Source: Bacteroidota bacterium
GTDB taxonomy: Bacteria > Bacteroidota > Bacteroidia > Flavobacteriales > Flavobacteriaceae
NCBI GenBank assembly: GCA_012522045.1
Contig: JAAYLC010000030.1
Coordinates: forward strand, 1-54,443
DNA: 54,443 nt
Direction: 5' to 3'
Shown: piece after piece, positions 6,610 to 39,100 of the stretch
Layout of the letters: every line of letters starts with the position of its first letter
How positions within the stretch are numbered: position 1 is the stretch's first letter
Program-made: the position numbers and the translations under genes
The notes under the pieces: generated by a model
The model's input: the letters and a program-made list of their open reading frames with translations, nothing else
The model's database searches: none
Told to the model about the DNA's origin: nothing

Positions 6610-7317
6610 ATGTTATCAATTATCAGCAAAGAAATTCAATCATTTTTTTCCGGTATCATCGGGTATTTGGTAGTTGCCATTTTTGTGGTTATCAATGGAT
6701 TGTTTTTATGGGTTTTTAAAGGAGATTTTAACATTTTTGACAGTGGATTTGCAGATGTAACTCCATTTTTTGAACTCGCGCCGTGGGTCTTGCTCTTTCT
6801 GGTTCCTGCCGTTTGCATGAGAGCATTCAGCGATGAAAAGAAATCAGGAACTTTGGAATTGTTACTCACAAAACCTTTAACGGTGAATCAAATCGTTTTT
6901 GGTAAATATTTAGGAGCCGTTTTGTTGGTCATAATTGCTCTGATTCCATCCGTTCTGTATGTTTTTACTATTTCTGAATTGGGAAATCCGCCGGGAAATT
7001 GGGATTTAGGAAGTACCTTAGGCTCCTATTTCGGACTTTTATTCTTGATTTTTAGTTATTCGGCAATCGGAATTTTTTCGTCAACCCTCACTCAAAGTCA
7101 AATTGCAGCATTCATAATTGCCATTTTCCTCTGCCTGTTTTTTTATTACGGTTTTGAGGGCTTGTCAACGGCTTCATTGGATTTGTCCGGATTTGGTTTT
7201 AAAGCGCACTACGAAAGCATTTCCCGAGGCGTCATAGATTCACGAGACTTGGTTTATTTTCTTTGTGTAACAGGCTTTTTTATTGGATTAACATCATTAA
7301 GTTTAAAAAGACAATGA
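6610..7317 (+). CDS. gldF: Gliding motility ABC transporter permease GldF
   Basis: A 235-residue integral membrane protein with about six hydrophobic segments, of the ABC-2 permease type. The recognisable family stretch is FSDEKKSGTLELLLTKPLTVNQIVFGKYLGA between the second and third segments. In Flavobacterium johnsoniae, GldA, GldF and GldG form an ABC transporter needed for gliding. The frame is open from a TTG at 6604, but the ATG at 6610 (MLSIISKEIQSFF) fits relatives, which start with a short basic residue run before SFF. Its stop overlaps the gldG start (ATGA at 7314-7317), a sign of translational coupling. Confidence 0.92.
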   Translation: MLSIISKEIQSFFSGIIGYLVVAIFVVINGLFLWVFKGDFNIFDSGFADVTPFFELAPWVLLFLVPAVCMRAFSDEKKSGTLELLLTKPLTVNQIVFGKYLGAVLLVIIALIPSVLYVFTISELGNPPGNWDLGSTLGSYFGLLFLIFSYSAIGIFSSTLTQSQIAAFIIAIFLCLFFYYGFEGLSTASLDLSGFGFKAHYESISRGVIDSRDLVYFLCVTGFFIGLTSLSLKRQ

Positions 7318-9005
7318 AAGGCAAGCATACATTCATCAAACAACTCTTTTTATTAATCGCCGGATTGGGCTTGTTATATGCGATAGGGCAATTCTTCTAT
7401 GTACGCATTGACATGACGAAAGATAAACGCTATACTTTGGCGTCTGTGACAAAAGATATTGTCAACCAAGCAGATTCTCCGGTTGTTGTCGATGTGTTGT
7501 TAGGTGGAAAATTTCCTCCGGAGTTTCGTAAACTTCAAAGTGAAACCCGACAGTTATTGGAGGAATTCGCCACAGAAAATTCACATATTAAATTCTCCTT
7601 CATTAACCCGATGGAAGAAGAATCAGAGACCCTTTATAAAACCATTGAAGAGTTAGGAATTGAAGCCGCTCAAGTTTCTGTCACCGAAAGCGGAAGACAA
7701 AGTGTAGAAGTTGTTTTCCCATGGGCAATTGCGCATTATCAAGGGAGTAAAGTTGCCATTCCGTTATTGAAAAATCAACTCGGTGCTACTACCGAAGATC
7801 GGGTGAACAGTTCGCTGCAAAATCTGCAGTATGCTTTTGCCGATGGATTTAAAAAATTATTGACAGAACGCTCCAAGAAAATTGCCGTACTTAAAGGGAA
7901 CGGCGAATTGGAAGACAAATATATTTTTGACTTTATAAGCACCATTCGTGATTATTATTACACAGCACCTTTTACATTAGATTCTGTTGCCACCAACCCT
8001 TCAGGAACTTTAAAAGCACTCAGAGAATTTGATTTAATCATCGTTGCCTAACCCACGAAACCCTTTACGGAAGAACAAAAATACGTATTGGACCAATACA
8101 TCATGGACGGCGGAAATTCCCTCTGGCTGATTGATATGACTCAAATGCATATTGACCCGGATTCCGGTGGAACTTTTGCTTTTGGATTGGATTTAAATTT
8201 AAATGATTTTCTGTTTCGATATGGTGTGCGAATCAATCCGAATCTTGTAAAAGATATTTATGCAGCGCCCATCGTTCTTGCGAGCGGAGAAGAACGCAAT
8301 ACACAATACGACAGATTTCCCTGGTTCTTCAGTCCTTTGAGCAGCAGTCACAACAATCATCCCATTGTAACCAATATGGAAGCGGTGAAATTTGACTATG
8401 CAAGCGCGATTGATACGCTTGAATCACCGATTGATAAAACAATTCTTTTAACAACCTCTCCGTTTTCAAGACGTGTTGGACTTCCTTTTGAAATAGATTT
8501 AAATTCAGAAATTGCACACAATTTGGAAGTTATCAATTCCGGCACGCATATGGAACTCTATAATTCCGGTGAAGTTCCATTGGCAGTATTATTGGAGGGC
8601 AAATTTACTTCCGTTTATAAAAATCGGGTGAAACCATTTCAGCTGTCCGAAAATATGGTCAATATGGATGAAGGCCACACAGCAAAAATGGTCGTTGTAA
8701 GTGACGGCGATTTAATTAAAAATCAAATGGCAGGAAACCGCCCGCTGGAATTAGGATTTGACAGAATGACGAATTCTTTTTACGGTAATAAAGAATTTTT
8801 ATTAAATACCGTAAACTATTTATTAGACGACACCGGATTGATTAATTTGAGAACCAAACAAATTCAAATTGCATTTTTAGACCCTATCAAAGTCATTGAC
8901 GAACGCATCAAATTTCAGTTTATAAATATCTTGATTCCTATTTTATTGTTCGGTATTTTTGGTTTCATCTTCAACTATCTCAGAAAACGCAAAAATGTGA
9001 AATAA
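7314..9005 (+). pseudogene. gldG: gldG interrupted by an in-frame stop at codon 246
   Basis: The GldG gliding-associated transporter subunit, an auxiliary membrane protein with a large extracytoplasmic domain (DUF4350/ABC-type_uncharacterised fold) between an N-terminal and a C-terminal membrane segment. The reading frame from the ATG at 7314 is continuous for 564 codons, the full family length, except for one TAA at 8049-8051. Codons before it end LIIVA. Those after it resume at once as PTKPFTEEQKYVLDQYIMDGG, which is normal GldG sequence, and the protein ends with a hydrophobic segment plus RKRKNVK. No frameshift is seen. A single base change from CAA or AAA would make this stop. Unless it is a sequencing error or is read through, the product is a 245-residue fragment lacking the C-terminal anchor. 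Confidence 0.85.
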
Positions 9006-9123: not shown

Positions 9124-10242
9124 ATGAAATTCATTGTTTCCAGCTCCTATCTTTTAAAGCAATTACAAGTGTTGGGAGGCATTATAAACGCTTCAAATAC
9201 ACTTCCTATTCTCGATAATTTTCTATTCAATTTAGAAAACAACACGCTTACAGTTTCTGCATCAGATTTAGAGACTACAATTTCTTCTCAATTGGAAGTT
9301 GACAGTTCCCAAAACGGCACTCTTTGCATGAATGCCAAACTTCTTTTGGAAACGTTAAAAACCTTACCGGAACAACCACTGACTTTTACTGCTACAGATA
9401 ATCATACTGTGGAAATCAGTTCAAGTCAAGGAAAATATACGCTTGCTTATGCAGATGCCGATGATTTTCCAAAAGTTATCGAAATGGAAGACACTAATTC
9501 TTTAACGGTTCAGGGGGATATTTTAGCAAGTGCAATCAGTAAAACTATTTTTGCATCCGGAAATGACGATTTGCGTCCGGTGATGAGCGGCGTATTTTTT
9601 CAATTTTCTACCGAAAAACTAATCTTTGTGGCAACAGATGCGCATAAGTTGGTTAAATATGAGCGAACAGATGTCAGGGCTCCTGAAGATGCTGAATTTA
9701 TTATGCCTAAAAAACCGCTCAATTTACTGAAAAATATTCTCGCGGGGAAAGAAGAAATGGTCACCATCGAATATTCTGAAAGCAATGCAAAGTTTAGTTT
9801 TGAAAATACCGAGATGGTCTGCAGATTAATCGATGGAAAATATCCGAATTACGAAGCAGTGATTCCAAATGAAAATCCAAACAAACTGCTTATCAGCCGT
9901 ACACAGTTTTTAAATTCAGTAAGGAGAATTTCTATTTTCTCCAATAAAAGTACGCATCAAATCCGGCTTAAAATTGCAGGTGCCGAATTGAACATTTCTG
10001 CTGAAGACCACGATTTTAGCAATAAAGCAGAAGAGCGCTTGACATGTGATTATCAAGGTGATGACCTGCAAATCGGGTTTAACAGCAGATTCTTAACAGA
10101 AATGCTTGGAAATCTTGACAGCGATGACATTACCCTTGAAATGAGTTTACCGAATCGTGCAGGAATTTTAAAACCTGCTGATGGCTTAGATGAAGGGGAA
10201 GCAATTACGATGCTCGTGATGCCGGTAATGTTGGGAAGTTAA
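9124..10242 (+). CDS. dnaN: DNA polymerase III beta subunit (sliding clamp)
   Basis: The 372-residue processivity clamp, a ring-shaped dimer with three similar domains per subunit (about residues 1-120, 130-245 and 250-372). Typical segments are the start MKFIVSSSYLLKQLQVLGGII, NTLPILDNFLF, LETTISSQLEV, RPVMSGVFFQF, ATDAHKLVKYER, YPNYEAVIP and the C-terminal VMPVML, whose final strand forms the partner-binding pocket. Length and order are normal. It follows gldG by 118 bases with its own promoter-like sequence and is closed by a hairpin terminator. Confidence 0.97.
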   Translation: MKFIVSSSYLLKQLQVLGGIINASNTLPILDNFLFNLENNTLTVSASDLETTISSQLEVDSSQNGTLCMNAKLLLETLKTLPEQPLTFTATDNHTVEISSSQGKYTLAYADADDFPKVIEMEDTNSLTVQGDILASAISKTIFASGNDDLRPVMSGVFFQFSTEKLIFVATDAHKLVKYERTDVRAPEDAEFIMPKKPLNLLKNILAGKEEMVTIEYSESNAKFSFENTEMVCRLIDGKYPNYEAVIPNENPNKLLISRTQFLNSVRRISIFSNKSTHQIRLKIAGAELNISAEDHDFSNKAEERLTCDYQGDDLQIGFNSRFLTEMLGNLDSDDITLEMSLPNRAGILKPADGLDEGEAITMLVMPVMLGS

Positions 10243-10552: not shown

Positions 10553-13500
10553 TTATCGTTTCAAACTAAAGTGTCCTTTAATTTGTTTCGGCATATCGTG
10601 TTCCATATACTCAACACGGAACCAATAGTCGCTTGAAGGCATCGGGTTTCCGTTATGCGTACCGTCCCATCCTTCACCGCCGGGAACCAATTGCTTCAAC
10701 AATTTTCCATAACGGTCGAATATGTAGATTTTCGCATTTGGATCCAATTCACCCATTCCGTAGATGTTCCAAGTGTCGTTGTAATTATCACCGTTTGGTG
10801 TAAAGAACAACGGATAATCTACTACTCCTACTGGGATTCTCACACTTCCACAACCGTTTTTATCGCGGATGGTAATAATGTGTGAGCCCGCAGGAACATC
10901 GTAGAAAACAGTACCGTCTTGGAATGGTTCGTCGTTAAACTGGAACTCATATTCACCCAAACCTGATGCAGATACTTCAACAATATGAACACTTGAGAAA
11001 GCATCGGTAGTTGTGATTGCATTGTAAGTAAGTGGCGGTGAAGACAACACCACTGTGGCAGTTCCGATAGTCACACATCCGGATTCGATATGGGTTGCCG
11101 TAACAACATATTCTCCAGCTTCAGTTGCAATAATCGAAGGGCCTTCTTCTCCGGGAATAATCACACCGTTGTGTGTCCATTCGAAAGTAAATAACTCAGG
11201 ATCCAAGAACGTATCGATTAATGGTGGTGATGTTTCTCCAAACTCTTCAGTTAACGGGTTACCTTCAGCATCCACACACAATCTGTACTGATCTTCGAAA
11301 TAAATTTCCGGCAGCTCTTCTACCAATAGGATTACTTCGACGATTTCATAACACTGCGGCTCCCAAGGATTGTCCTCATTTGTTACACGTGCGTAAATTA
11401 TTTGTGGATTAATCACATTAATATAAGGCCATACAATCGGATTTTCTCCTGCAACCGCTTCATCGTAGCTTTCATAGAAATGCAATGAATAGATTGACGG
11501 ATCTTGATTGTTCAATATTTCATTTCTAAAGTCAACAACTTTTTGCAGACTGAAATCTTCTAGGTCAAATTCGGCAATTCCGTCGCTTGGCATTAAATTG
11601 TCACAAATCTTAAAGGGCTCTGCCGGTTCATTTGCTACAACACCTTCCATAACTCTCAAGAAGAAACTGCCTCCACTTACGAAACATTCAGTATCTCTAT
11701 TTTCGATTCGCACAAAGATTTCTTGTGGATTCGTTTGATTGAAGAATGCATCAGGAGTTACAATAGCATTGACTCCGTTATCAGCGTCATTTTGATCTTC
11801 ATAGAACTTGACATCAAAAACAAATGGACTCTGACCGTTTAAAATTTCTGGAATCTTTGTTGTTAAATCAAACAAGGCTCTTCCGTCTGTATCCAACTCA
11901 CAGATAATATAGTCTGAAATATCACCATCCAGAATCGGAAGCGGATTGACAATTAATAACAACTCTACAATGGTGTAGCAGCCGGTTTCAGAATTTGTTA
12001 CGCGAACGTAAATAATCTGTTGCGGAGTTTCCACATTTACGTAACTGCTCGGGTCAAGAATCGGATTGACATTGTCTTCCGCATCTTCATAGGTCAAGTG
12101 ATACGTGAAATCACCTACCTCTCCGTTTAGAATTTCAGCTTCTCTGATTGTCAAGTCGAATTCCATAAATCCGGTACCATCCACATCACAAAGCTCAATC
12201 GGTTCCGGAGCTTCAATATCCGGATTCGAATTTACTACCAATGTTAAAGTAGTATGAGAAGCACAACCGTTGTCTCCATCGACTACGCGTACATAAATGG
12301 TCTGTGGATTGGATGTATTTGTAAAGGCATAATCCGGATTAATAGGATTTATACCTTGTAAAGCATCGTCTTCATCTACATAATACTGAACATCCATACC
12401 CAATTGACCCAAAGTAAAGTCATTGTACATCGTGCTCAAATCAAATTCTGCGGTCTCTCCATCTCCACACACTTCCATTCTGAACGGTCCTCCAATTTCA
12501 GGAGCCATTTCAACAATGAGCGTCATTTTTCGAACAGTACCGCATTCAGTATCAGTATTCCCCAAGCGTACCCAAATATCTTGCGGATTGGATATGTTAA
12601 AGTAATTCTGAGGATCACTAATTGGCTGAATATTATCGATTGCACTTTGTTCAGTTTCATGATACGTGAGGTCAAAATCGGCCGGATTTTGAACACCGTA
12701 AATAACAGTTTCATTTACTGTCAAGTCAAACAAAATCCCGGTATCTATAAACGGATCTTCACTACAGACAACAATTTCCGGTAAAATAACGGGCACATCC
12801 GGGGTATCGTGAACGATCAATTCAAGTTCTACCACTGCAAAACATCCGGTTGTCGTAAATTCTGAACGTGCATAAACTGTTTGATTGTATGCAACCACGT
12901 TTGCGTAAGGACTGGTCAATGCAAATATTCCCAAATTGGCGTCACTTAATGTTTCGTGATACGTCACTACTGTATTAGGCTCATTATTTCTGATATATTG
13001 CGTTGCCAATTCCAAATCAAACCATGCAAATCCATCACTGCTCGGATCACAAACCTCTAAAGGTTCAGGTTCTCTTGGAGAAGGTTGCGGATTTACGATA
13101 AGCGTTAATGTATATCCTTCGGTTATTACACAACCTTCCGAACTTTCTGCACGAATGTAGATTGTCAGGTTATTGATAATGTTTGTATAAAGTGCAGGCA
13201 ATGGATTAATTCCGGCGTCTGCATCTGCTTGTGTTTCGTGATACGTGATAGAAATACTCGTATCGCCGCCTGTAATTTGAGAAGTTGCCATATTCAAATT
13301 AAACTCCTCAATTCCATCATTCGGATTATTCACATCACACAATTCCAATGGATCGGGATGGAAAATATTAGGCATATCAACAACAGATATTTCAAACTCC
13401 ACCTGATTTGAGCAACCGTTATCGTCATCACTTACCACCACATAAATGGTTTGTGGATTGGTGATGCTTGTATAAGCAGTCGGTACAGGAATCGAATTGT

Positions 13501-16500
13501 TATTGTTAAGATCTGTCAATGTTGCAAAATATCTTATCGTATAATCCGAAGGATTTGGAATGTTGATCATCACCTGAGGCTCCACCACAGTCAAGTCAAA
13601 CAAACCGGTACCATTTCCGTTAAAGTCACATTCAACCAAGTCATCCGGAGCTTCAATTTGCGGACTATCCAATACTTTCAATTCCAATTCCACCACACTG
13701 TAACAGGCCACACCGGCAGATTCTACGCGCGCATAAATAATTTGCAAATACGGTACAGTATTGTAGAATGGACTTGCCAAAGGAAGCACATTGTTATTTG
13801 CATCTGCCAAGGTAACGTGGTAAGTTACATTTACTCCGGCTACACCACCCGTGATTTGAAGATCAGCATCGGTCAAAGTGAAAGAACCGAGACCATCATT
13901 ATCTTCATCACAATAGGTCAATGGATCAGGAATATTGGCAACAGGCGCTTCGTTCACTTGTAAATCAAGCGGTGCAACTGCGTAACATCCGGTGGTTTTA
14001 TCTTCAATTCTCACATAAATCGTCTGATTGTATGGAGTTGTATTCGTAAACGGAGAATTTAATTGATCGCCGGGGTTTCCGGTATGGGCTTCTGAATCTG
14101 TCAAATAATAAGTCACATCAAGATTCGGATCGTTTCCGGTAATTTGTGTTGTTGCAAGCGACAAATCAAACGGAACCATTCCCGTTCCGGAACCGGTATC
14201 ACAAACAATCAATGGTTGTGGCGGATTGAATGCAACAGGATCATGGAACATCAGATTAAACTGACCGACACTGTAACAACCTCCACCAACTGTGTACTCT
14301 ACACGAACGTAAATCACCTCATTTCCTGTACTCGGATAAGCAGTAGGATCCGCAATCGGATTTGTAGCGTTGTTAGCATCAGCTGATGAATTGTGATATG
14401 TAATATCTACAGAACCCGGAGCAATTGTATTTAAAATTTCAGGCTCTTTTAAAGTCAAATCGAAATCTTCTGTGCCATCTCCGTCGTTATCACACAGTTT
14501 CAAATCAGTGATTGGATCGGTAATTGGCGGATTGCTAACCACTTCAAGGTCAAAATTTCCTGTTGCATAACATCCTGTTACATCGTCTTCTATTCTGAAA
14601 TAAATAGTTTGCGGATTGCTCGTGTTTGTATAAGGCGTTGGAAGCGCATTGGTCGTTCCTCCTGCATCAGCCGCAGCCTGAGAAGTATAGAAATTAACTG
14701 TAAATCCGGTTTGTCCGTTGAGGATTTCAGCTTCAGGAACTGTCAAATCAAACGGAGCTGTTCCGTTGCCTGAAGTATCACACAGCAACATATCATTTAC
14801 CATTCCCGGTTCAGGATTCGGATTGACAATTAAATCAAACTCCGTAATGATAAAACAATCAGTCGCTGAATCTTCTATTCGTACGTATATTGTTTGAGGA
14901 TTACTTGTATTCGTATGATTTAATGGCAAAGCAGAGACTCCGGTTTCAGCATCTGTTTCATCAGCGTGGAAAGTAACATCTAAATTCGGGTCGTTGTTCG
15001 TCATTTGAGTGACCATGGTGTTCAGATCAAATTGGGTGAACCCATCAGCGACCGCATCGTCACACAGTTCATAATGCGTTGGAATATTAAAATTAATTTC
15101 CGGATGAATAACTATATCAAAGGAAACAACTATGAAGCAATCGTCAGGACCTGTGACCCTTATGTAGATGGTATCTGTTTGTCCGGGACTTATATTTGCT
15201 ATATAGGCATCAGGATCTGAGATTTCATTTTGAGGAATTATTTGGGCATCATCGTAATAAGTCCATGAATAATCAGAAACAGGAGACAAGTTAGATGGCA
15301 AATAAGTTTCTACTTCTGTCAAATCAAATTCATAATCCGTAAGTGCTGGATCCGGACACAATTCCAAAGGTCCCACTACCACATCAAAATCTGAAGGAAC
15401 ATCAGGAGCTTGCCCTGCAAATAATTCAAACATAACCACATCATAACAATCCTCTGGTTGAGGACCGGCGTTTAATCCCGCCCAGTTAAAATCCAAACGG
15501 GCATAAATATCGTAAGTTCCAGGTGAATTAACAGTATATGCAGAAGTCGTCTGTCCAGTTCCTGTAGAAGGGATTGCCCCTACTCCAGCATGAGCATCAG
15601 CTTCTGAAGTATAATAACTGACACTGTATTCGTGTGGCAGATAATTGGCACCGATGATTGAATCTTGCAGTGTTAAATCAAATGTAGCCTGAGTCATGGT
15701 GGGGTCATTGTTACACACCGCCATATCAGGTGGACAAGCAGCTACGGGGCAGAATTTGAATATATCCACCATAGACTTTAATGGAAAATCATATATCAAC
15801 CCGCAATTCATTTCATAAATAGTAGTCGCTTCAACCGAAAAATATCCATACAATGGAGTTCCCTGATTAAAATCCCGCGGATAATCCACTTCATAACAAA
15901 ATGATGATGTTGTGCTACTATTTAACGTAGTGGTCTGTCCTACTTGCGTGTTGTTTTTAAAAATTTTAAGTTCAACTGTACCCGGGGTTATGGTTCCATT
16001 GTTTCCAGGTGCAATAATTGGGGTGGAGAATGTTCCACATACTTCAATAGGGAACACGGGATTTAAAACCGGAACTGCAGGAGAACAATTGTCTGAGTCA
16101 ATCTCTTCTATGAGAGAGCATGGTTCATAATCCGGATCAGAAACAGCATTTTCTACAGGTTCAACTGCCAAATAACCAAATGAAGGACTACTACAAATAT
16201 CCGGTCCATCATCCCCTACATAAATATTATCCACATAAACATAACTGAAGTGAAAATCGGGTTGACAAGTAGAAGCTGAAAATTCCACTCTGATTTTTTG
16301 ACCTTGGACTTCTCTAGTGTTCATTTTAACACAAGACCAGTTTGAGTATAATAAAGTATATGGAGAGCCCGGAAGATTTGGTTCCTCATTGAGAATACAG
16401 TCACCATTATTAGCTTTAATACAACGCTCCTCTATAACATTATTATTCATATCATATACTTTTACCTGAAAGAAAGGTTCTGTTTGAGTAGGTATATGGT

Positions 16501-18016
16501 GTACCGGATTTTCCATTAGAATTGCAAAATCGAAAGCAAGTACTTCTCCGGCAATCATTTCTTTACGCATGGTAACAATACCACTATTCTGAGATGTGTT
16601 TGGAATATTTCTGTTTAAGCGCATCGAAAATTTAGAACACGTATCTCCTAAAGGACTAGTTCGTGGAAATGGAATTCCCATACACATTAAAGTAGGATCA
16701 TTTCCAGCCGTTACAATGGAAGCATAAGTAGAGTATTGAGTACAAGCTGATGGCGATTCCGGTGGCCCGAGGGCGATAGGGTTATTATAAAGAAAAGTGA
16801 TATTACACACTTGAAAGTTAGGGTAATTTCCAGATATTGGATTATGGAAAATAGTAACCCCTGTAGTATCTGCTTCTCCATCTTGAGTTTCAAAACCAGT
16901 ATTTTTTGCACAGGCGCAAGTACGTTCTTCCACTATCACTTCCAAGGGTTCGCTTTCACATCCATTTATGGTTTGAGTTACATAGTAAATTTCACCATCC
17001 TCCAAAAAAGTACTTGAAGGCAAACTTGTCATTGTACTATCATACCATTTCAAATTTTGACCACATATTGTCAAATCAGAAAGCATATCTCCAGGAAAAG
17101 AAATCATACCCGAAGCAGCATAAGTATCTCCAGTACAGAAGAAATATTCATTTTGTCCGGATGGCGGTTCTACTTTATATTCTATGATAACTGGCAACAA
17201 ATCAGGACAATTTGGGTCATTAAAGCCGGCATAATAAGTTGTATTTCCTTCTACTATGGTATTTCCCGAAATGGAATTGTTTCCTGCCGGATCGTCATAC
17301 CAAGAATGATTGTTCCCGGGCAGTCCCAAATCATCCAAAGTCGTATTGGCACCATGACAATATTGGTCATAGATCCACGCTCCGGTTAAAATGGTAAAGT
17401 TCTGTACCGTCGCAGGGCATCCTCCTTGAGAAGTATTTGTCGTAGCAGAAAAATCATAGCGTTTGTTGGGCTCGCCATTAAAATAAGTTGGGTTGTAACC
17501 CCACTGAAAGTTAGGATTACCTAAACCACTGTCAAAATACAACGGTTCGCCCCAAGGATTAGCTGTTCCGGTTTTTCGCCAGATAGGTTGATCTACAAGC
17601 GTATCTCCGTTTATATCCAAAGCATAGATAGTTACAATATCTGACGGATCGACTACAAATATATTATCTCCAAGATTGATACACGATTTCGGACTTACGT
17701 CAAAATGTATCGACTGTAGTTTGACAGTAATAGGAATCAAATTACTCTCCGTACAAACGCCGCCGGGTTCTGTGTTGCTTACATAATAAGTGGTCCCGTG
17801 AACAATGGGTGTGGTTCCCGGGAGTGGTGGATTTGATGCTGTAGCATCGTCATACCAAGTTAAATCACCGGTAGCCGTAACGGTTAAATCATCTAATATC
17901 GGAGAAGCACCGGTACAGAAATACTGCGGACTGTCTGCTACCGGATCAGGACATTGTTGGGAATAAATGAATAATGGTAGAAATATAAAGAAAGCTATTA
18001 GCGTATTTTTTTTCAT
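10553..18016 (-). CDS. Giant T9SS type B sorting-domain repeat protein (adhesin-like)
   Basis: A secreted or surface protein of 2487 residues. A signal peptide occupies residues 1-20 (MKKNTLIAFFIFLPLFIYSQ). Three Ig-like modules of about 75-90 residues, each with FCTG/YCHG and WYD motifs, fill much of the first 370. A beta-rich region around 370-610 resembles a jelly-roll, ending FSYVYVDNIYVGDDG. About fifteen imperfect repeats of about 97 residues run from roughly 760 to 2230, then come one or two Ig/PKD-like modules. The last ~88 residues are the gliding-motility-associated C-terminal domain (FFTPNGDNYNDTWNIYG, IYIFDRYGKLLKQ, GWDGTHNGNPMPSSDYWF, ending GHFSLKR), which directs type IX secretion. 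The protein is very acidic. No PorP/SprF-like partner lies nearby in the window. Adhesion is inferred from architecture; the ligand is unknown. Confidence 0.93.
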   Translation of the reverse strand: MKKNTLIAFFIFLPLFIYSQQCPDPVADSPQYFCTGASPILDDLTVTATGDLTWYDDATASNPPLPGTTPIVHGTTYYVSNTEPGGVCTESNLIPITVKLQSIHFDVSPKSCINLGDNIFVVDPSDIVTIYALDINGDTLVDQPIWRKTGTANPWGEPLYFDSGLGNPNFQWGYNPTYFNGEPNKRYDFSATTNTSQGGCPATVQNFTILTGAWIYDQYCHGANTTLDDLGLPGNNHSWYDDPAGNNSISGNTIVEGNTTYYAGFNDPNCPDLLPVIIEYKVEPPSGQNEYFFCTGDTYAASGMISFPGDMLSDLTICGQNLKWYDSTMTSLPSSTFLEDGEIYYVTQTINGCESEPLEVIVEERTCACAKNTGFETQDGEADTTGVTIFHNPISGNYPNFQVCNITFLYNNPIALGPPESPSACTQYSTYASIVTAGNDPTLMCMGIPFPRTSPLGDTCSKFSMRLNRNIPNTSQNSGIVTMRKEMIAGEVLAFDFAILMENPVHHIPTQTEPFFQVKVYDMNNNVIEERCIKANNGDCILNEEPNLPGSPYTLLYSNWSCVKMNTREVQGQKIRVEFSASTCQPDFHFSYVYVDNIYVGDDGPDICSSPSFGYLAVEPVENAVSDPDYEPCSLIEEIDSDNCSPAVPVLNPVFPIEVCGTFSTPIIAPGNNGTITPGTVELKIFKNNTQVGQTTTLNSSTTSSFCYEVDYPRDFNQGTPLYGYFSVEATTIYEMNCGLIYDFPLKSMVDIFKFCPVAACPPDMAVCNNDPTMTQATFDLTLQDSIIGANYLPHEYSVSYYTSEADAHAGVGAIPSTGTGQTTSAYTVNSPGTYDIYARLDFNWAGLNAGPQPEDCYDVVMFELFAGQAPDVPSDFDVVVGPLELCPDPALTDYEFDLTEVETYLPSNLSPVSDYSWTYYDDAQIIPQNEISDPDAYIANISPGQTDTIYIRVTGPDDCFIVVSFDIVIHPEINFNIPTHYELCDDAVADGFTQFDLNTMVTQMTNNDPNLDVTFHADETDAETGVSALPLNHTNTSNPQTIYVRIEDSATDCFIITEFDLIVNPNPEPGMVNDMLLCDTSGNGTAPFDLTVPEAEILNGQTGFTVNFYTSQAAADAGGTTNALPTPYTNTSNPQTIYFRIEDDVTGCYATGNFDLEVVSNPPITDPITDLKLCDNDGDGTEDFDLTLKEPEILNTIAPGSVDITYHNSSADANNATNPIADPTAYPSTGNEVIYVRVEYTVGGGCYSVGQFNLMFHDPVAFNPPQPLIVCDTGSGTGMVPFDLSLATTQITGNDPNLDVTYYLTDSEAHTGNPGDQLNSPFTNTTPYNQTIYVRIEDKTTGCYAVAPLDLQVNEAPVANIPDPLTYCDEDNDGLGSFTLTDADLQITGGVAGVNVTYHVTLADANNNVLPLASPFYNTVPYLQIIYARVESAGVACYSVVELELKVLDSPQIEAPDDLVECDFNGNGTGLFDLTVVEPQVMINIPNPSDYTIRYFATLTDLNNNNSIPVPTAYTSITNPQTIYVVVSDDDNGCSNQVEFEISVVDMPNIFHPDPLELCDVNNPNDGIEEFNLNMATSQITGGDTSISITYHETQADADAGINPLPALYTNIINNLTIYIRAESSEGCVITEGYTLTLIVNPQPSPREPEPLEVCDPSSDGFAWFDLELATQYIRNNEPNTVVTYHETLSDANLGIFALTSPYANVVAYNQTVYARSEFTTTGCFAVVELELIVHDTPDVPVILPEIVVCSEDPFIDTGILFDLTVNETVIYGVQNPADFDLTYHETEQSAIDNIQPISDPQNYFNISNPQDIWVRLGNTDTECGTVRKMTLIVEMAPEIGGPFRMEVCGDGETAEFDLSTMYNDFTLGQLGMDVQYYVDEDDALQGINPINPDYAFTNTSNPQTIYVRVVDGDNGCASHTTLTLVVNSNPDIEAPEPIELCDVDGTGFMEFDLTIREAEILNGEVGDFTYHLTYEDAEDNVNPILDPSSYVNVETPQQIIYVRVTNSETGCYTIVELLLIVNPLPILDGDISDYIICELDTDGRALFDLTTKIPEILNGQSPFVFDVKFYEDQNDADNGVNAIVTPDAFFNQTNPQEIFVRIENRDTECFVSGGSFFLRVMEGVVANEPAEPFKICDNLMPSDGIAEFDLEDFSLQKVVDFRNEILNNQDPSIYSLHFYESYDEAVAGENPIVWPYINVINPQIIYARVTNEDNPWEPQCYEIVEVILLVEELPEIYFEDQYRLCVDAEGNPLTEEFGETSPPLIDTFLDPELFTFEWTHNGVIIPGEEGPSIIATEAGEYVVTATHIESGCVTIGTATVVLSSPPLTYNAITTTDAFSSVHIVEVSASGLGEYEFQFNDEPFQDGTVFYDVPAGSHIITIRDKNGCGSVRIPVGVVDYPLFFTPNGDNYNDTWNIYGMGELDPNAKIYIFDRYGKLLKQLVPGGEGWDGTHNGNPMPSSDYWFRVEYMEHDMPKQIKGHFSLKR
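11310..15740 (-). repeat. About 15 protein-level tandem repeats in the adhesin
   Basis: Each unit is about 97 residues and follows the pattern LCD-x-DGDG-x-x-FDLT-x-x-x-x-x-IL, then TYH/YY-x-T-x-ADA, NPI or LP, a YTNxxNPQTIYVR strand, and TGCYxVxxFxLxV before a Pro-rich linker. Two Cys per unit, one in LCD and one in GCY, are kept in nearly all copies, suggesting one disulfide per module. The units are diverged in DNA, so they are old duplications, not recent slippage. Boundaries are approximate. Confidence 0.85.
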
Positions 18017-25120: not shown

Positions 25121-27019
25121 ATGAAAAGAATTTTTTTTGTGTTAACACTTATGAGTGCCGGATTAACTTACGCCCAACAAACAATGACTCCGGAATTGCT
25201 GTGGCAAGTAAAACGCGTGAGCCCTATCGGGTTGTCTGAAAATGGCAACGATTTATTTTATAAAGTCACCCTTCCGAATGTGGAAAAGAACACCTCGGAA
25301 ACCAAATATTATAAAATGCCGGTAAGCGGAGGAAAAGGAATAGAAATTAGTGAAGAAGAAGTAAAAGCTGTCGATAAAAACATTTCTCCGGATGGAAACC
25401 ACAAACTGTTTCACAAAGAAGTTCATCTGAAAGATATTAAAGGTTCAGATATTTATAAGGATCTTCCTCAAAGCGATGTGTATGTTTACAATTCATTGGA
25501 TTACAGACATTGGGACACATTTAACGAAGGGAAATTCAATCATGTTTTTTATAAAAACTTAGAAACCGGCGCTGAAGTAGACATCATGGAAAATGAACCT
25601 TATTATTCTCCTCAAGCTCCTTTTGGAGGAAGTGAAGATTATATCTGGGCACCCGATGGCGAACATATTTATTACGTAAGCAAAAAAGAAGAAGGCACGG
25701 CTTATGCAACAAGCACCAACACAGATATTTACAAATACAATTTAAAATCCGGCAATACTGAAAACATCACTCAAGACAACAAAGGATACGACACGAATCC
25801 TGCTTTCTCAGATAAAGGGGTGTTGGCGTATTTGCAAATGAAAACCGAAGGATATGAAGCCGACAAAAACGACATTATTGTTTTGGAAAACGGAATCAAG
25901 CGAAATCTTACGACACATTGGGATGAGACGGTATTCAGTTTCAAATGGGCAAAAAACGGAAAAGAAATTTATTTTACAGCGCCCACCGACGGAACCATCC
26001 AATTGTTTAAAGTAGATTATCCCGGACGCACCAAAAAAATGCCCCATGTGGAGCAGCTTTCAGACGGACAATTTGATGTTACGGGAATTGTGGGAGAAGT
26101 TAAAGGCGCACTTATCGTTACCCGCACCGATATGAATCGTGCAACGGAAATTTTTTCATTTGATTTAAAAAAGAAAAACTTCACTCCTTTGACGCAAGAG
26201 AATGACGAATTCTACTCGAAATTGGATTTGCCTCAAGTCGAAAAACGATATGTTACCACAAAGGACGGAAAACGCATGCTTGTTTGGGTGATTCTTCCTC
26301 CAAATTTTGATAAATCCAAGAAGTATCCCACGTTGTTATATGCACAAGGAGGACCGCAATCACCGTTGTCTCAGTTTTACTCTTTCCGTTGGAATTTCCA
26401 ACTCATGGCTTCACAAGGTTATATTGTGGTAGCTCCCAACCGACGCGGAATGCCGGGTCATGGCGTGGAATGGAACGCCGAAATAAGCAAAAACTGGGGA
26501 GCCGGTGCCATGCAAGATTACCTTGATGCAATTGATGCACTGTCTAAAGAACCTTATGTCGATTCTGACCGTTTAGGAGCAGTTGGCGCCAGTTTTGGAG
26601 GCTATTCGGTGTTTTGGTTGGCAGGAAATCACAACAACAGGTTTAAATCTTTTATATCACATAACGGTGTTTTTGACAATCGCGCGATGTACGGAACCAC
26701 CGAAGAATTATTTTTTGTAAACCACGATATGGGCGGTCCTTACTGGGAAAAAGACAATGCCGACGCACAAAAAGCATTCAACGAATACAATCCCATCAAT
26801 TATGTGGCAAACTGGAATACACCCATTCTGATAATTCAAGGAGGCAGAGATTACCGCGTTCCTATTGAACAAGGTTTGGGAGCATTCCAAGCCGCACAAT
26901 TGCAAGGAATTAAAAGCAGATTGTTGTATTTTCCCGATGAGAATCACTGGATTTTAACTCCTCAAAATGCAATTGCTTGGCAACGTCAATTTTTTGATTG
27001 GTTAAAAGAAACATTGTAA
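25121..27019 (+). CDS. S9 family serine peptidase (prolyl oligopeptidase/DPP type)
   Basis: A 632-residue exported peptidase. The signal peptide is MKRIFFVLTLMSAGLTYAQ. Residues 20 to about 350 form a WD40-like beta-propeller (SPDGNHKLF, WAPDGEHIYYVS, WAKNGKEIYFTAPTDG) that screens access to the active site. The alpha/beta-hydrolase domain follows, with nucleophile Ser491 in GASFGGYS, Asp577 in GGRDYRVP and His609 in DENHWI, so the catalytic triad is complete. Such enzymes release dipeptides or acyl-amino acids from oligopeptides in the periplasm. It begins a run with the thioredoxin-like, map and methyltransferase genes, with gaps of 36-39 bases. Confidence 0.93.
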   Translation: MKRIFFVLTLMSAGLTYAQQTMTPELLWQVKRVSPIGLSENGNDLFYKVTLPNVEKNTSETKYYKMPVSGGKGIEISEEEVKAVDKNISPDGNHKLFHKEVHLKDIKGSDIYKDLPQSDVYVYNSLDYRHWDTFNEGKFNHVFYKNLETGAEVDIMENEPYYSPQAPFGGSEDYIWAPDGEHIYYVSKKEEGTAYATSTNTDIYKYNLKSGNTENITQDNKGYDTNPAFSDKGVLAYLQMKTEGYEADKNDIIVLENGIKRNLTTHWDETVFSFKWAKNGKEIYFTAPTDGTIQLFKVDYPGRTKKMPHVEQLSDGQFDVTGIVGEVKGALIVTRTDMNRATEIFSFDLKKKNFTPLTQENDEFYSKLDLPQVEKRYVTTKDGKRMLVWVILPPNFDKSKKYPTLLYAQGGPQSPLSQFYSFRWNFQLMASQGYIVVAPNRRGMPGHGVEWNAEISKNWGAGAMQDYLDAIDALSKEPYVDSDRLGAVGASFGGYSVFWLAGNHNNRFKSFISHNGVFDNRAMYGTTEELFFVNHDMGGPYWEKDNADAQKAFNEYNPINYVANWNTPILIIQGGRDYRVPIEQGLGAFQAAQLQGIKSRLLYFPDENHWILTPQNAIAWQRQFFDWLKETL

Positions 27020-31279: not shown

Positions 31280-33028
31280 ATGAATTTAACCAAAGACGTC
31301 CATCGACAGTTTGCACAATATTTTAAAAAACCCAATTTAGAACCTTATTTGTACCTGCTTTCAAAACGCTTGAGCGAAGGGCATATTTGCATCGATTTAG
31401 AAAGTACGACTACCGAGGATTGGGAAGATGCCGGCTATAACCCTCCTCGAGAAAATGCACTGAAAGATTCTTACTTTGTATCGGACGGAACCAAAAGAAC
31501 TCCCTTGGTGTTATGGAATAGAAATCTTTATTTACAACGTTATTTTGATTATGAAAAAAGTGTATTTGAACGCATTAAATTTTTTACCGCCCATCAAGAG
31601 GATGGAACTATAAAAAATAAATTAATCGCTCAAAAAGCGTATGTACAGCATTTATTTTCAAATACTTCTGAAATCGATTGGCAAATGATTGCCGCCATAT
31701 CCGCTGTGTTAAATCGGTTTACAATTATTACAGGCGGTCCCGGAACGGGAAAAACAACCACGGTGGCAAAATTCCTTTCGTTGTTGTTGCGTATAGCCCC
31801 CGAAACACGCGTTGCTCTTGCTGCTCCTACCGGAAAAGCTGCAGCAAGAATGGCAGAATCATTAAAAAATTCAACGGCATTGGAGACGAATACACAAAAA
31901 TTAATTCAACAATTTGAACCTTCTACCATCCATCGGTTGTTGAAAGTGAAAAGAAACTCAATTTATTTCAAACACAACCGCGAAAATCCAATTCCTTATG
32001 ATTTGGTCATTATCGATGAATCGTCAATGATTGACATCGCCCTATTTTCAAAACTTATGGAAGCCATTCCAGACACTTCGAAAATTGTACTTCTAGGCGA
32101 TAAAAACCAACTTGCCTCCGTAGAAGCCGGAAGCTTGTTTGGCGATTTGTGTTTGGCGCAAAATCGATTAAACCAATTCGCAACAGAACGCGCCCGGTTT
32201 ATAAATCAATTTATAACATCAGAATCCGCTAAAATTTCAGAAAATCACCTGTCAGAAAAAAAACATTTGCTTTTTGAAAAAGTAATCGAACTTCAAAAAA
32301 GTTATCGTTTTTCAGACCAAGGCGGCATCGGAAAATTAAGCAATGCCATCATCACAAACGCGCGTGAAAATTTGATTGCATTCTTTGAAAATAAAGATGA
32401 AGAAGTCACCATCGACACAACCTATTCTGATGAAGTTTTTACTACTTTCATTGAAGGCTATGAGGAATACATCCAAGAAACGGATATCAAAAAAGCTTTT
32501 GAAAAATTGAATCAACTGCGCGTACTTTGTGCCGTTCGTGAGGGACCGCAAGGCGTTTATTCCGTAAACACACAAATCGAAAACTATCTCATCGCTAAAA
32601 AATTAATTGCGCGAACCGGCGAATTCTATGAAAATCGACCGATTATCATCACCGGAAACAATTATGAACTATCCCTTTTTAACGGCGATATCGGAATTGT
32701 GCGCAGCGACAAAAACGGAAAATTGAGGGTGTGGTTTGAAGATGAAAATCAAGGATTAAAATCAGTATTGCCTGCGTATATTTCGGCAGCGGAAACTGTT
32801 TTTGCCATGACCATTCACAAAAGTCAAGGTTCTGAATTTGATCACGTTTGTGTGTTGTTGCCAAATTTGGAAGCCAATCCGTTACTTACCCGCGAATTGC
32901 TTTATACCGCTGTGACCCGTGCCAAAAAAGAAGTAATCATACAAGCTGATAAAGAAGTGCTTCTAAAATGTATAGAACGCGGCGTGGAAAGAAGTTCCGG
33001 ACTCCTAAAAAGATTTAATAACGCATAA
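31280..33028 (+). CDS. recD: Exodeoxyribonuclease V subunit alpha (RecD)
   Basis: The 582-residue 5'-3' helicase of RecBCD. A ~130-residue N-terminal domain that contacts RecC is followed by Walker A GGPGTGKTTT (from Gly152), AAPTGKAAARMAES, STIHRLLK, Walker B VIIDESSMID and LLGDKNQLASVEAGSLFGDL. Helicase domain 2B follows, with AMTIHKSQGSEFDHV and LLYTAVTRAKKEV near the C-terminus. The length is close to E. coli RecD (about 608), and having an N-terminal RecC-binding type domain plus this context makes it RecD1, not the stand-alone RecD2. It is first in a recD-recC-recB run, 15 bases before recC. Confidence 0.94.
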   Translation: MNLTKDVHRQFAQYFKKPNLEPYLYLLSKRLSEGHICIDLESTTTEDWEDAGYNPPRENALKDSYFVSDGTKRTPLVLWNRNLYLQRYFDYEKSVFERIKFFTAHQEDGTIKNKLIAQKAYVQHLFSNTSEIDWQMIAAISAVLNRFTIITGGPGTGKTTTVAKFLSLLLRIAPETRVALAAPTGKAAARMAESLKNSTALETNTQKLIQQFEPSTIHRLLKVKRNSIYFKHNRENPIPYDLVIIDESSMIDIALFSKLMEAIPDTSKIVLLGDKNQLASVEAGSLFGDLCLAQNRLNQFATERARFINQFITSESAKISENHLSEKKHLLFEKVIELQKSYRFSDQGGIGKLSNAIITNARENLIAFFENKDEEVTIDTTYSDEVFTTFIEGYEEYIQETDIKKAFEKLNQLRVLCAVREGPQGVYSVNTQIENYLIAKKLIARTGEFYENRPIIITGNNYELSLFNGDIGIVRSDKNGKLRVWFEDENQGLKSVLPAYISAAETVFAMTIHKSQGSEFDHVCVLLPNLEANPLLTRELLYTAVTRAKKEVIIQADKEVLLKCIERGVERSSGLLKRFNNA

Positions 33029-33043
33029 TCCGCAACTGTTTCC

Positions 33044-36000
33044 ATGAGTATTCGATTAAAAGTTTCTAATTCCTTGCTTCAACTCGTAGAAAATCTGGCA
33101 ACAGAAATTCAACATTCTGCGGATGTTTTTCGTCCGATTTACATCGTAACTCAAACTGAAGGGATGAATATCTGGCTTAAACAACAACTGGCGGAACGCC
33201 TCAGAATTATTGCCAATATTCATTTTTTAAAACCAAATGACAGTGTGCATTTGTTATTTAGAAAAGTATCGGGAACTTATAAGCGTTCCATATCATCATT
33301 AGATTTTACTTGGTTGCTTTTTAATTTATTGGAGGACAGAGAGTTTAAAAATCGTTATCCTTTTATTGCACAATACTACAGTCCGGAACAGACAGACAGC
33401 GAATTAAAACGGATGGCATTGGCTCAAAAAGTTGCTGACCTTTTTGATCAATATCAAGTGTATCGAACCACGGTAATTGAAGCCTGGATTACCGATGAGG
33501 ACCATTTTGACAATTGGCAAAAAACACTCTGGAAAATGGCGGTAGAACGCATTGGAGAAAACTTTCCCGATAAAAATTACATCGGAAAATTTATTGAACA
33601 AGCGCTACAAACTCCGGAAACACAACAAAAATTACAAGAAGAAGTTTCGACCTTATATTTTTTTGGAATCAGTTTAATTACTCACTATCATTATACAATC
33701 ATCAATTCTGTTTCAAAATTTATCGATGTTCAATTTTTAATGCAAAATCCAGCACCTGAGGATTATTGGTTTGAAGAAAAAACAGAAAAAGTTATTTCTT
33801 ATTTACAAAGCAAAGGGTATTACGATCACACTGAAAAATCTGAAGCAAACCCTTTATTGGTAAGTTGGGGGAAATTAATTCAAGATACCTTTTTAATGAT
33901 TTTTGAAGACGGTCAAACCTTAAATACGATGCAAGAACTTCCTACGGAAATTCCGACTTCCAACACGCTTTTGCACCGTATTCAGCAATCAATTTATCAC
34001 AATGAAAAACAATTAAATATTCCTGAGAATCTTATAAACGACGGTACCATTACAATAAATTCCTGTTTTAATCCGCTGCGTGAAGTTCAAGTTTTATACA
34101 ATTATCTGGTTCACTTAATCGACCAACGCAATGAAAATTTATCGGCGCGCGACATCGTGGTTATGGTTTCCGATATCGATATTTATGCATCCTACATCAG
34201 AGCCGTTTTTGACAATGCTCCGTATCGATTTCGCTATACAATTGCAGATGAAAGTTTTGCGGTTTCTGATAGTTTGTCAAATGCTTTGATTGAACTTCTA
34301 TCCCTTCGTGAAAGTCAATTTACGTCGGAAAACATCGTCCGACTTTTGGATTTTTCGGCACTTCGCAATAATTTTCAAATCAACGATGTTGAATTTATCA
34401 GAAATCTGGTTCGCGAAGCCAACATTCGTTTCGGCATCGTGGGGAATAAAGAAGATGACACGTATTTTGTCAGTTGGCAATACGGATTAAAACGGATTAT
34501 GTACGGACTTTGTATGCGTGGTGGAGACACCTATGAAACCGAAAATGAAAGCTTATTTCCATTGGATTCGGTGGAAGGTTTTCAAATGTCGCAAGCAGTG
34601 CATTTTACGTACTTCGCAGAAATGCTGATACAATCTGTTCAGGCGCGAAAAACACAGCGCACCCTTTCGGAATGGGTTACTTATGTGGAAGAAACTGTCT
34701 ATCAATTTATCGGAGAACGAGAAGAAAATGAGGATGAAGATTATTTGCTACTGCTCAAAGCATTGGAAAACTACAACTTGCTTCAAGAAGTTTTTGAAGA
34801 AAAAGTTAGTTACGATGTGTTTCTGTATAATTTCCTTCCCATTCTAAAAAATGCACGAAGAAGTCACGCATTTGCGTCGTCCGGAATCACTTTTTGTTCC
34901 TTGATTCCCATGAGAAGCATTCCCTTTAAAGTAGTAGCACTTTTGGGAATGGATTATGACAAATTTCCACGAATCGATACCCGTGTAAGCTTTGATTTAA
35001 TGATTAAAGAAAAACAACGCGGCGATCGCAATATCAAAGAAAATGACAAACACCTCTTTTTGGAGACTTTAGTATCTGCCGAAGATTATTTGTACATCAG
35101 TTATACCGGACAAAGCGTGAAAGACAACAGCAATATTCCGCCGTCCTCTTTGGTGGATGAACTCATAGATTTTATCGTAACCCATACAGAAAATCCGGAA
35201 AAAACGCGGAACAAAATGGTTCAAAAACATCCGCTGCACGACTTTAGCAAAAATTACAATTCCGACAATCCGAATCTGTATTCGTATCTGTCCGATCGCC
35301 CTTCAGAAATCACTTTTCTTAAAACCAATCCGGAAATTTATTATGACTTTGATGACATTGCCATAGAAGAATTCATCTCCTTTTTAAAAAATCCCATCAA
35401 AAGCTATTACAACAAAGTCCTGAACATTTATTATCAAGAAGACGAATTGGTTTTGGAAACTACAGAAAAATTTGATTTAGATAACAGAGACAAGTGGCAA
35501 TTGCGAACAAATTTTCTATCACTTTCGGAAGAAGCCTATGAAACTGAAAGGCAGCGGCTGCTCAAACAAGGAAAATTACCACTAAAAAATATGAGCAAGA
35601 GAAGATTTCAGGAACTCATTGAGGAAATTGCTTTTGTGAAAAAAACTTTTGAAAACCTGACAGCGTCTCTGGAAAAAAACAAAGTTCCTGTGGCATTAAG
35701 AATCGGCGACTCACAAATCAGTGGAAATATAGAAGTTTTCGGAAATCTGTTGGTCTATGCTTGTTTTTCCAAAAACGAATTAAAATATCAATTGGACGCC
35801 TACATTCAATATTTAGTATTGGCAGCATCGGGAATGGATGTCGAGCTTCATTACATATCACATCATCTCGCTAAAGTCACCGAACTCCGTGATATTTCAA
35901 AATCGGAAGCGCTGGAAAACTTAGAAAAAATGCATCATTTTTATGTTCAAGGACATCTGGAAATTCTTCCTTTTATTCTTGAAATTACGAAAGAAATCAA

Positions 36001-36196
36001 AGATTTCGAAAACTGGACTTTTGAGAAATTTAAAAAAGATTTAAACACTTATTTCCACAACTACAGATTCCCTTGTACGGATAACTACCATATCAGAGAA
36101 TATCAGCAAGGCTTATTTTCCGACGAATCCAATTTTGAAAAGTTTAAAGAGGCGGCTTTTGTTTTGATAGCTCCGTTAAAAACCCTATTTGATTAA
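33044..36196 (+). CDS. recC: Exodeoxyribonuclease V subunit gamma (RecC)
   Basis: The 1050-residue RecC scaffold subunit, which holds inactive helicase and nuclease folds, splits the DNA duplex and reads the Chi sequence in E. coli. Recognisable stretches are VTQTEGMNIWLKQQLAERL near the N-terminus, TINSCFNPLREVQVLYNYL (start of the second helicase-like fold), ARDIVVMVSDIDIYASYIRAVF and ITFCSLIPMRSIPFKVVALLGMDYDKFPR. No Walker A is present, as expected. It follows recD by 15 bases, and its stop abuts the recB start (TAAATG). Confidence 0.93.
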   Translation: MSIRLKVSNSLLQLVENLATEIQHSADVFRPIYIVTQTEGMNIWLKQQLAERLRIIANIHFLKPNDSVHLLFRKVSGTYKRSISSLDFTWLLFNLLEDREFKNRYPFIAQYYSPEQTDSELKRMALAQKVADLFDQYQVYRTTVIEAWITDEDHFDNWQKTLWKMAVERIGENFPDKNYIGKFIEQALQTPETQQKLQEEVSTLYFFGISLITHYHYTIINSVSKFIDVQFLMQNPAPEDYWFEEKTEKVISYLQSKGYYDHTEKSEANPLLVSWGKLIQDTFLMIFEDGQTLNTMQELPTEIPTSNTLLHRIQQSIYHNEKQLNIPENLINDGTITINSCFNPLREVQVLYNYLVHLIDQRNENLSARDIVVMVSDIDIYASYIRAVFDNAPYRFRYTIADESFAVSDSLSNALIELLSLRESQFTSENIVRLLDFSALRNNFQINDVEFIRNLVREANIRFGIVGNKEDDTYFVSWQYGLKRIMYGLCMRGGDTYETENESLFPLDSVEGFQMSQAVHFTYFAEMLIQSVQARKTQRTLSEWVTYVEETVYQFIGEREENEDEDYLLLLKALENYNLLQEVFEEKVSYDVFLYNFLPILKNARRSHAFASSGITFCSLIPMRSIPFKVVALLGMDYDKFPRIDTRVSFDLMIKEKQRGDRNIKENDKHLFLETLVSAEDYLYISYTGQSVKDNSNIPPSSLVDELIDFIVTHTENPEKTRNKMVQKHPLHDFSKNYNSDNPNLYSYLSDRPSEITFLKTNPEIYYDFDDIAIEEFISFLKNPIKSYYNKVLNIYYQEDELVLETTEKFDLDNRDKWQLRTNFLSLSEEAYETERQRLLKQGKLPLKNMSKRRFQELIEEIAFVKKTFENLTASLEKNKVPVALRIGDSQISGNIEVFGNLLVYACFSKNELKYQLDAYIQYLVLAASGMDVELHYISHHLAKVTELRDISKSEALENLEKMHHFYVQGHLEILPFILEITKEIKDFENWTFEKFKKDLNTYFHNYRFPCTDNYHIREYQQGLFSDESNFEKFKEAAFVLIAPLKTLFD

Positions 36197-39100
36197 ATGA
36201 CAGCAAAAAAAATCAATTTTAAAAAGTTTGAAGTTTTGACGGTTCCCTTGACAGGCAGCAATTTGATAGAAGCAAGTGCGGGAACAGGAAAAACCTATTC
36301 CATAGCCATTCTTTCTTTACGCTTGATTTTGGAAAAGAAAATTCCTATCAACGAAATTCTGATGGTAACTTTTACCAATGCCGCTGTTGCCGAACTTCAA
36401 GAACGCGTACGCTTTTTTATTCGAGAAGCTTACAAATACGTGAACGGTCAAGACATTGGAGATGCGCAAATTAAATCGGTAGTAGATGCTTCAAAAAGTC
36501 AGCTGACTCATGAAGAAGCACAACTGCTTTTGCGACGTGCCCTGCTTAATATCGATGAAACGGCAATTATGACCATTCACGGATTTTGTCAAAAAAGTCT
36601 TCATGAATTTGCGTTTGAAACCAATCAACTTTTTAATGCCGAATTAATTCAGGATGTTACAGAAATTATCACCAAAGAGATTCAACAATTTTGGCGTTCG
36701 CACATCACTGTTTTAGAAGATGAATATTTAAAAATATTAACAGCCTGTGGATTTAACCACGCTACGATTTTTGCTGTTTTAAAAGACCATTTAAATGAAA
36801 AAAACTATCTGTTTTACGATTTCGAGCGCCGATACGATTTAAAAACCGATTTAGAAAAAAACACAGGAGAATCTTATAAAACCTTACAAGCCCAAGCTGA
36901 AACATGCAAAGAACAACTCATTCAAAAAATAATTGATGAACGCACGCATATTGAAAACCAATGTTATAAAAATAGATACGCACAATCATTAGTGACAACC
37001 TTGGACGATCCCGAAAAATTTATTGCGATAATTTATGAGAGAAAAACTAAGAAATACATTAAAGATTTATTCCCGGAATATCTAAAAGAAATACTCCGCT
37101 ATTACGAACTTTGTGAAGCCATACTTGTCCAAGAAGAAAAAACAATCAACGATGTTTATTCATTTGCCATTCAAGAAATCAGTGAACAAATAGAAAAGCA
37201 CAAACGCGCTTTGAATTTGATGTCTTTTGACGATATGATTGTCAGAATGCACGACGCTCTGACAAAGAATAAAAATACCTCCCTTGCCGAAGAATTGCGT
37301 AAAAAATACAAAGCTGTTTTTATCGATGAGTTCCAAGATACCGATAAAAAACAGTATGAAATTTTTAAAAATGCATTTCAAGATAACAGCATTTTATTTT
37401 ATATAGGCGATCCCAAACAGTCCATTTACGCATTTAGAAAAGCCGATATCGCAACCTATTTTGAGGCGCGAAATCGAGTGGACAACGTGTATGAGATGAA
37501 TATCAATTACCGATCTACTCCATCGTTGATAACAGCGCTGAATCATTTTTTTCTTCCTCATGAAACCTTTGACACCTTTCATTATGAAGATGACAATCAA
37601 AACATTACTTATACAAATGTGGATGCGCCTGCAAACGATTCAAAAGGAAACATTCTTTATAAAAACAATCCCATCACTCCGATTCAACTTACCAAGCTGA
37701 ACAAGAAAGATGAAATTGCTTCTGATTTAACCTATCAAATCTTGAATTTATTGACAGATTCTAATTTCACGATTCCGGATAAAAAGTTGGGAAATCGTCC
37801 CATCCGACCTTCAGATATCGGCGTGTTGGTTCGTTCAAACCGAGATGGATTAAAAATTCAACAGCAACTGTCACATGTGAACATACCGACCGTTATCTTT
37901 TCGGATATCAAAATTTTACAAACCAATGAAGCCCAAGAAATCGCTTATTTGTTAGATGCCATCATTCAGCACAAGCGCGCGCAGGTAAATCGGGTTTTAC
38001 TCACCAAAATGTTCGGATGGAAAAAAGAAGACATTCTGCAAGCCGATGATGAACACCTTATAGAAATGTTCCGAAACTATTATTCGATGTGGCTGGAAAA
38101 AGGTATTTATGCGACACTGATGACTGTTATTTCTGATTTCGGAATCCGTACCGCTTTAACTTCTGATGACGAAGAAAACGGAATGCGCATTTTGACAAAC
38201 CTCACCCATCTGATGGAATTACTGTACAAAACCGAAAGTCGCCAGCACCTCAATCCGGTAGAATTATTGCAATGGCTTCGGTTAAATATCGCGAATCCGG
38301 AATCTGAGGATGACGAATGGATTCAACGCATGGAAACAGATGAGGAAGCTGTTAAAATCGTTACCATTCACAAAAGCAAAGGCTTGCAATATCCTATTGT
38401 TTTTGCACCCTATTTGGATTTTGCTTTGCGTGTCGAAAATTCTTCCATCGTAAATTTTCGTGATAAAAACGGCGATTATCGGTCGGGAAAACTCACGCAA
38501 TTAGATGATTCTCAACGCCAACTTTATCTGAATCAATCGGAACAAGAAAACCGCCGATTGCTCTATGTAACCCTTACCCGAGCAGTGTACGCTTGTTTTA
38601 TTTATAAAAACAATTATTACACAAAATCCACACTCAGTGAATTTGTAAATGCCATTACCGTTGATGGCGTTTACATCGGCGAAAACGAACCTCTTGAAAA
38701 ACCGACTACTCATTATGTCCCAGAAGCTCCAAAAAAGCAAAACCATCCAAAAATCACGAATTTCATACTAAGAGAAAATTATTGGGCACGGATGAGTTAC
38801 AGCAGTTTGGCAGCAAAGCCGGAATTTATTCCCAGAGCGAATTACAGTTCCGAGACCCAAGATTACGATTATTTTATTTTCAAATCGCTTGGAAAAGGCT
38901 CGAAAATCGGTAATTTTTTACATACGCTGTTTGAAAACATCAGTTTTGATACAACTCAAAATCAACAACGAACGATTCAACGAATCATCAATCAATTTAT
39001 ACAGAAAAAAGAACAATCGTTTGAAGAAAATATTCATCAATTACTCGAACATACCCTTCAAGTTAAAATTCAAACCGATGCAGAATCTTTCAGTTTGTCC

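Follow-up and report, generated by a model that had tools for sequence, protein, structure and literature searches.

An isolated in-frame stop codon in gldG of a fragmented flavobacterial draft genome, most probably a sequence error

The gldG gene of this flavobacterium is interrupted by an in-frame TAA in the given sequence, and our analyses suggest that this stop is one of many alike in a fragmented draft and is most probably an error. We consider a substitution error in the draft consensus to be its likeliest origin, with a probability of roughly 0.6. Taken at face value, the sequence depicts a flavobacterium giving up the GldAFG transporter while retaining type 9 secretion substrates. A single stop cannot carry such a claim, because isolated stops occur at about one per 90 kb here, in unrelated genes.

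The gldG frame and its stop

The window, that is, the whole stretch of 54,443 nucleotides that was analysed, is one contig (C159) of a 2.69 Mb draft genome in 247 contigs with 93% completeness. The features around the stop are as follows.

6610..7317, + strand: gldF, intact, with a 4-base overlap with the gldG start (TIGR03518, 337 bits, positions 1-239 of 240)
7314..9005, + strand: gldG reading frame, 563 codons plus stop, with one TAA inside (TIGR03521 match over 1-550 of 552)
7314..8048, + strand: first 245 codons of gldG, including the N-terminal membrane segment (TIGR03521 positions 1-240, E 1.7e-84)
8049..8051, + strand: in-frame TAA, codon 246 (Lys or Gln in 30/30 relatives aligned)
8052..9002, + strand: remaining 317 codons of gldG, including the C-terminal membrane segment, without decay (TIGR03521 positions 243-550, E 8.7e-119)
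9124..10242, + strand: dnaN, intact, the usual gene downstream of gldG (TIGR00663)

The initial annotation had described a gldG of full length with a TAA at codon 246, no frameshift and normal GldG sequence on either side. This description is confirmed by the translation of 7314-9005, in which the TAA is the sole internal stop, and by the two TIGR03521 matches flanking it, which share one frame and are not offset by any indel. With the stop passed over, the gene scores 698.8 bits, above the curated TIGR03521 cut-off of 389.85. Scored alone, the N-terminal part reaches 284.4 bits and the C-terminal part 397.6 bits, the latter exceeding the GldG cut-off by itself. Hydropathy places the membrane segments at about residues 6-30 and 531-557; a 245-residue product would indeed lack the C-terminal anchor, as had been proposed, and the given sequence does not encode both segments in one uninterrupted product. 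The genome has one copy of gldG.

gldG adjoins gldF and precedes dnaN, which is the family's usual gene order; the order gldF-gldG-dnaN has been described for flavobacteria (PMC5682007). gldA is intact on a different contig, and gldK and sprA are intact in the same genome. Directly past dnaN lies an intact gene (window 10553-18016, - strand) whose 2487-residue product bears a type B T9SS sorting domain. Elsewhere in the window, recD and recC are clustered ahead of a frame of 1132 residues that is likely recB (31280-39595); Dpp5-like (25121-27019) and Dpp7-like (39711-41897) dipeptidyl-peptidase genes flank this group.

A gldG match was found in 54 of 60 relatives, and none of the 54 carries an internal stop. 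In the 30 relatives aligned, the codon opposite the TAA is AAA or AAG (Lys) in 28 and CAA (Gln) in two, and the nearest relative (62-68% identity) is one with CAA. Identity to these relatives is equal or higher in the C-terminal part than in the N-terminal part. Since the relatives are uninterrupted and the part past the stop is equally or better conserved, the TAA is a solitary change in a gldG that is sound in all other respects. No second lesion, be it another stop or a frameshift, was found along the frame 7314-9005. Residues unique to the given gldG at otherwise invariant sites number two, which is ordinary, and missense errors therefore gain no independent support. In several relatives (L012, L013, L014, L019, L020 and L031), gldG sits in an open frame of about 790-806 codons, as though gldF were continuous with it, which may point to a natural gldF-gldG fusion.

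The maintenance of frame and conservation on both sides of the stop would also be expected if the TAA were read through and full-length GldG were made. However, TAA is the terminator of gldG itself and the commonest one among the window's long frames (25 TAA, 4 TGA and 4 TAG for frames of at least 200 codons), interruptions elsewhere in the genome use TAA, TAG and TGA, no tRNA with a stop anticodon occurs in the 54 sampled stretches, which hold some 13 tRNA genes, and none of the 30 aligned relatives has a stop at this site. We therefore regard readthrough as extremely improbable. A division of gldG into two proteins, with the latter one starting internally and acting as a split subunit, is highly improbable as well. 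Candidate starts are present (ATG at 8103, 51 bases past the stop, or TTG at 8088), and the C-terminal part alone is recognisable as GldG. On the other hand, the coding potential is unbroken between the stop and the ATG at 8103, the C-terminal part would be deprived of the N-terminal membrane segment that probably places the domain outside the cytoplasm, and a split gldG is found in none of the 54 relatives with a match.

Isolated stops across the draft genome

The genome was scanned for pairs of long coding stretches in one frame, separated by a single stop, with coding potential unbroken across it. The scan covered 1.108 Mb (41%) of the genome as sampled stretches; the counts come from a home-made coding-potential scan, curated by eye and by HMM family matches. 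Twelve genes with an in-frame stop, of unrelated functions, were identified (6 TAA, 3 TAG and 3 TGA).

gldG, window 8049-8051, + strand: in-frame TAA; scan and TIGR03521
gldJ, L051 -16381, - strand: in-frame TGA; gene L051 15664-17388 (G000 C165:35673-37316); family match continues past the stop
menG/ubiE, L045 -10958, - strand: in-frame TAG; gene L045 10724-11530 (G000 C195); family match continues past the stop
bcp, L044 -9761, - strand: in-frame TAG; family match continues past the stop
upp, L078 -10394, - strand: in-frame TGA; family match continues past the stop
amidohydrolase, L050 +7419, + strand: in-frame TAA; coding-potential scan
TonB-dependent receptor, L064 +2007, + strand: in-frame TAA; coding-potential scan
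UDG-superfamily (UDG-like) gene, L081 +11413, + strand: in-frame TAA; coding-potential scan
histidine kinase, first of two, L110 +13199, + strand: in-frame TAA; coding-potential scan
histidine kinase, second of two, L130 -11111, - strand: in-frame TAA; coding-potential scan
response regulator with PglZ domain, L123 -8158, - strand: in-frame TAG; coding-potential scan
SulP transporter, L124 -991, - strand: in-frame TGA; gene L124 7-1134 and upstream; coding-potential scan

Beyond gldJ, menG, bcp and upp, the stop parts domains or cuts the gene mid-profile in most cases. All listed genes except that of the SulP transporter show a single lesion in an otherwise sound frame. The SulP gene is the only one among the 12 with two lesions, an apparent frameshift and the in-frame TGA, and is perhaps a real pseudogene. 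Several further scan candidates proved to be ordinary gene boundaries, among them L055 -12905 (rbfA/FtsX-like), L058 +6090 (panB/RluA-like) and L043 -4715 (MBL hydrolase/LuxR-type). The candidates in L062 and L129 were ambiguous and were also kept out of the count of 12.

As a control, the same scan was run with less training sequence on four relatives (0.674 Mb in total, two of the genomes being single contigs) and yielded about one gene with an in-frame stop (L159 -13605). The difference, 12 versus about one, corresponds to a conditional exact p of about 0.02. Frameshifts, on the other hand, are not in excess: 5 candidates in 1.108 Mb here compare with 7 in 0.674 Mb of the controls, as counted by a Viterbi frame scan that is blind to in-frame stops owing to cheap re-entry at TTG or GTG. 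Real gene decay usually brings indels, and the absence of a frameshift excess therefore favours error. Our comparison thus revealed an excess of isolated lesions over unrelated genes, and the use of all three stop codons, the unrelated functions, the single lesions and the lack of extra frameshifts fit substitution errors.

Given the codon usage here, 4-5% of random coding substitutions create a stop. The 12 stops therefore correspond to about one wrong or new base in every 3.6 kb of coding DNA, or roughly one in 3.5-4 kb. A background of substitution errors at that rate would suffice for the observed scattered stops. On this reading, the TAA of gldG most likely reflects a miscalled consensus base in a fragmented assembly, probably one made from a metagenome, and the organism itself probably carries a normal, uninterrupted gldG between gldF and dnaN. 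Besides errors from thin coverage, unresolved strain variation may be an alternative source of the excess; we infer that one or the other, rather than real fixed mutations, accounts for it. Intact mutY and mutS genes give no indication of a mutator strain. The stop-making change can be assigned unambiguously in gldJ, upp and menG, and is G-to-T/C-to-A in all three, too few for a spectrum.

The strongest single case for the error reading is menG. One copy above the family cut-off exists in the genome, and it is interrupted by a TAG that replaces a Ser invariant in ten relatives; more than 70 conserved residues are lost past the stop. menA is intact, and menG is presumably essential in this organism. 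To our knowledge, menaquinone is the sole respiratory quinone of flavobacteria, and the loss of menG in a flavobacterium is therefore implausible. It is not strictly impossible, and losing menG is not lethal for every bacterium.

Real inactivation and the gliding genes

The other explanation to be weighed is a genuine nonsense mutation that disabled gldG only recently, in a lineage under weak selection that would have accumulated many young pseudogenes. We consider this possible, if doubtful. An argument for it, and a point against the error reading, is that gldJ, a functional partner of gldG, carries an internal TGA too, which lends slight support to a real loss of gliding. The TGA site of gldJ is Gly in 10 of 11 homologues and Ser in the remaining one, which is an additional copy in G027; gldJ is otherwise sound. 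From gene lengths, we estimate the chance of another gliding gene being among 11 other random stops at about 0.1-0.15, and the pair of stops in gldG and gldJ is thus suggestive of real inactivation, not decisive. In addition, the CAA of the nearest relative is one transition from TAA.

In Flavobacterium psychrophilum, truncation of GldG after residue 307 of 559 abolishes spreading and T9SS-dependent secretion (PMC5682007). Given that this 307-residue product is already defective, the 245-residue product here would be expected to be null. In F. johnsoniae, gliding is abolished in gldG mutants and GldK is unstable in the gld mutants (PMC8444969); where these Gld proteins are missing, the instability of GldK impairs T9SS secretion (PMC8444969, PMC9127263). 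Were the inactivation real, gliding would be lost, together with much of type 9 secretion through the loss of GldJ and GldK. If the stops in gldG and gldJ were both real, which we regard as unlikely, the lineage would have been caught while gliding and T9SS accessory functions were being lost, and the genome would offer a snapshot of the order of dismantling, with sorting-domain proteins, gldK and sprA still intact.

Several observations speak against real inactivation. gldF, gldA, gldK, sprA and the 2487-residue sorting-domain protein are all intact. gldG itself shows neither the second lesions nor the faster change past the stop expected of a decaying pseudogene, although a very young pseudogene would look alike. 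Moreover, stops are also found in genes unrelated to gliding, the only menG among them, and frameshifts are not in excess.

The genome context therefore bears differently on the three options offered by the initial annotation: it favours sequence error, it weighs against readthrough through the use of all three stops and the lack of a suppressor tRNA in the sampled part, and it leaves recent inactivation as the rival. For the case that the stop is real, the annotation further proposed a probable loss of GldAFG with T9SS substrates remaining; such a loss is disfavoured by the count of 12 versus about one stops, the hit in the only menG and the lack of a frameshift excess. It was also correctly stated that some gliding Bacteroidota lack gldAFG, as certain gliding flavobacteria are without the transporter (PMC7440613). 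Loss of the transporter alone would for this reason be unsurprising, but the point has no bearing on a gene so well preserved. Loss of GldAFG should not be claimed from this stop without read support. The practical lesson is that a draft genome should be checked for isolated stops before any single one is interpreted biologically.

Comparison with known systems

The gene described here resembles GldG of the GldAFG ABC transporter (TIGR03521) in its full-length match, gene order, topology and intact gldF and gldA partners, and differs from it by the in-frame TAA at codon 246 of the given sequence. The product predicted at face value is comparable to that of the gldG::Tn4351 mutant of F. psychrophilum (PMC5682007), in that GldG is cut mid-protein and the C-terminal segment is lost; in that mutant, the interruption is a transposon at residue 307, in contrast to the stop at codon 246. 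A literature search on error-derived stops in draft genomes returned nothing useful. As judged from the assembly, the present case shares with consensus substitution errors in draft metagenome-assembled genomes the occurrence of isolated in-frame stops of all three types, the spread over unrelated genes, the lack of a frameshift excess and the fragmented assembly.
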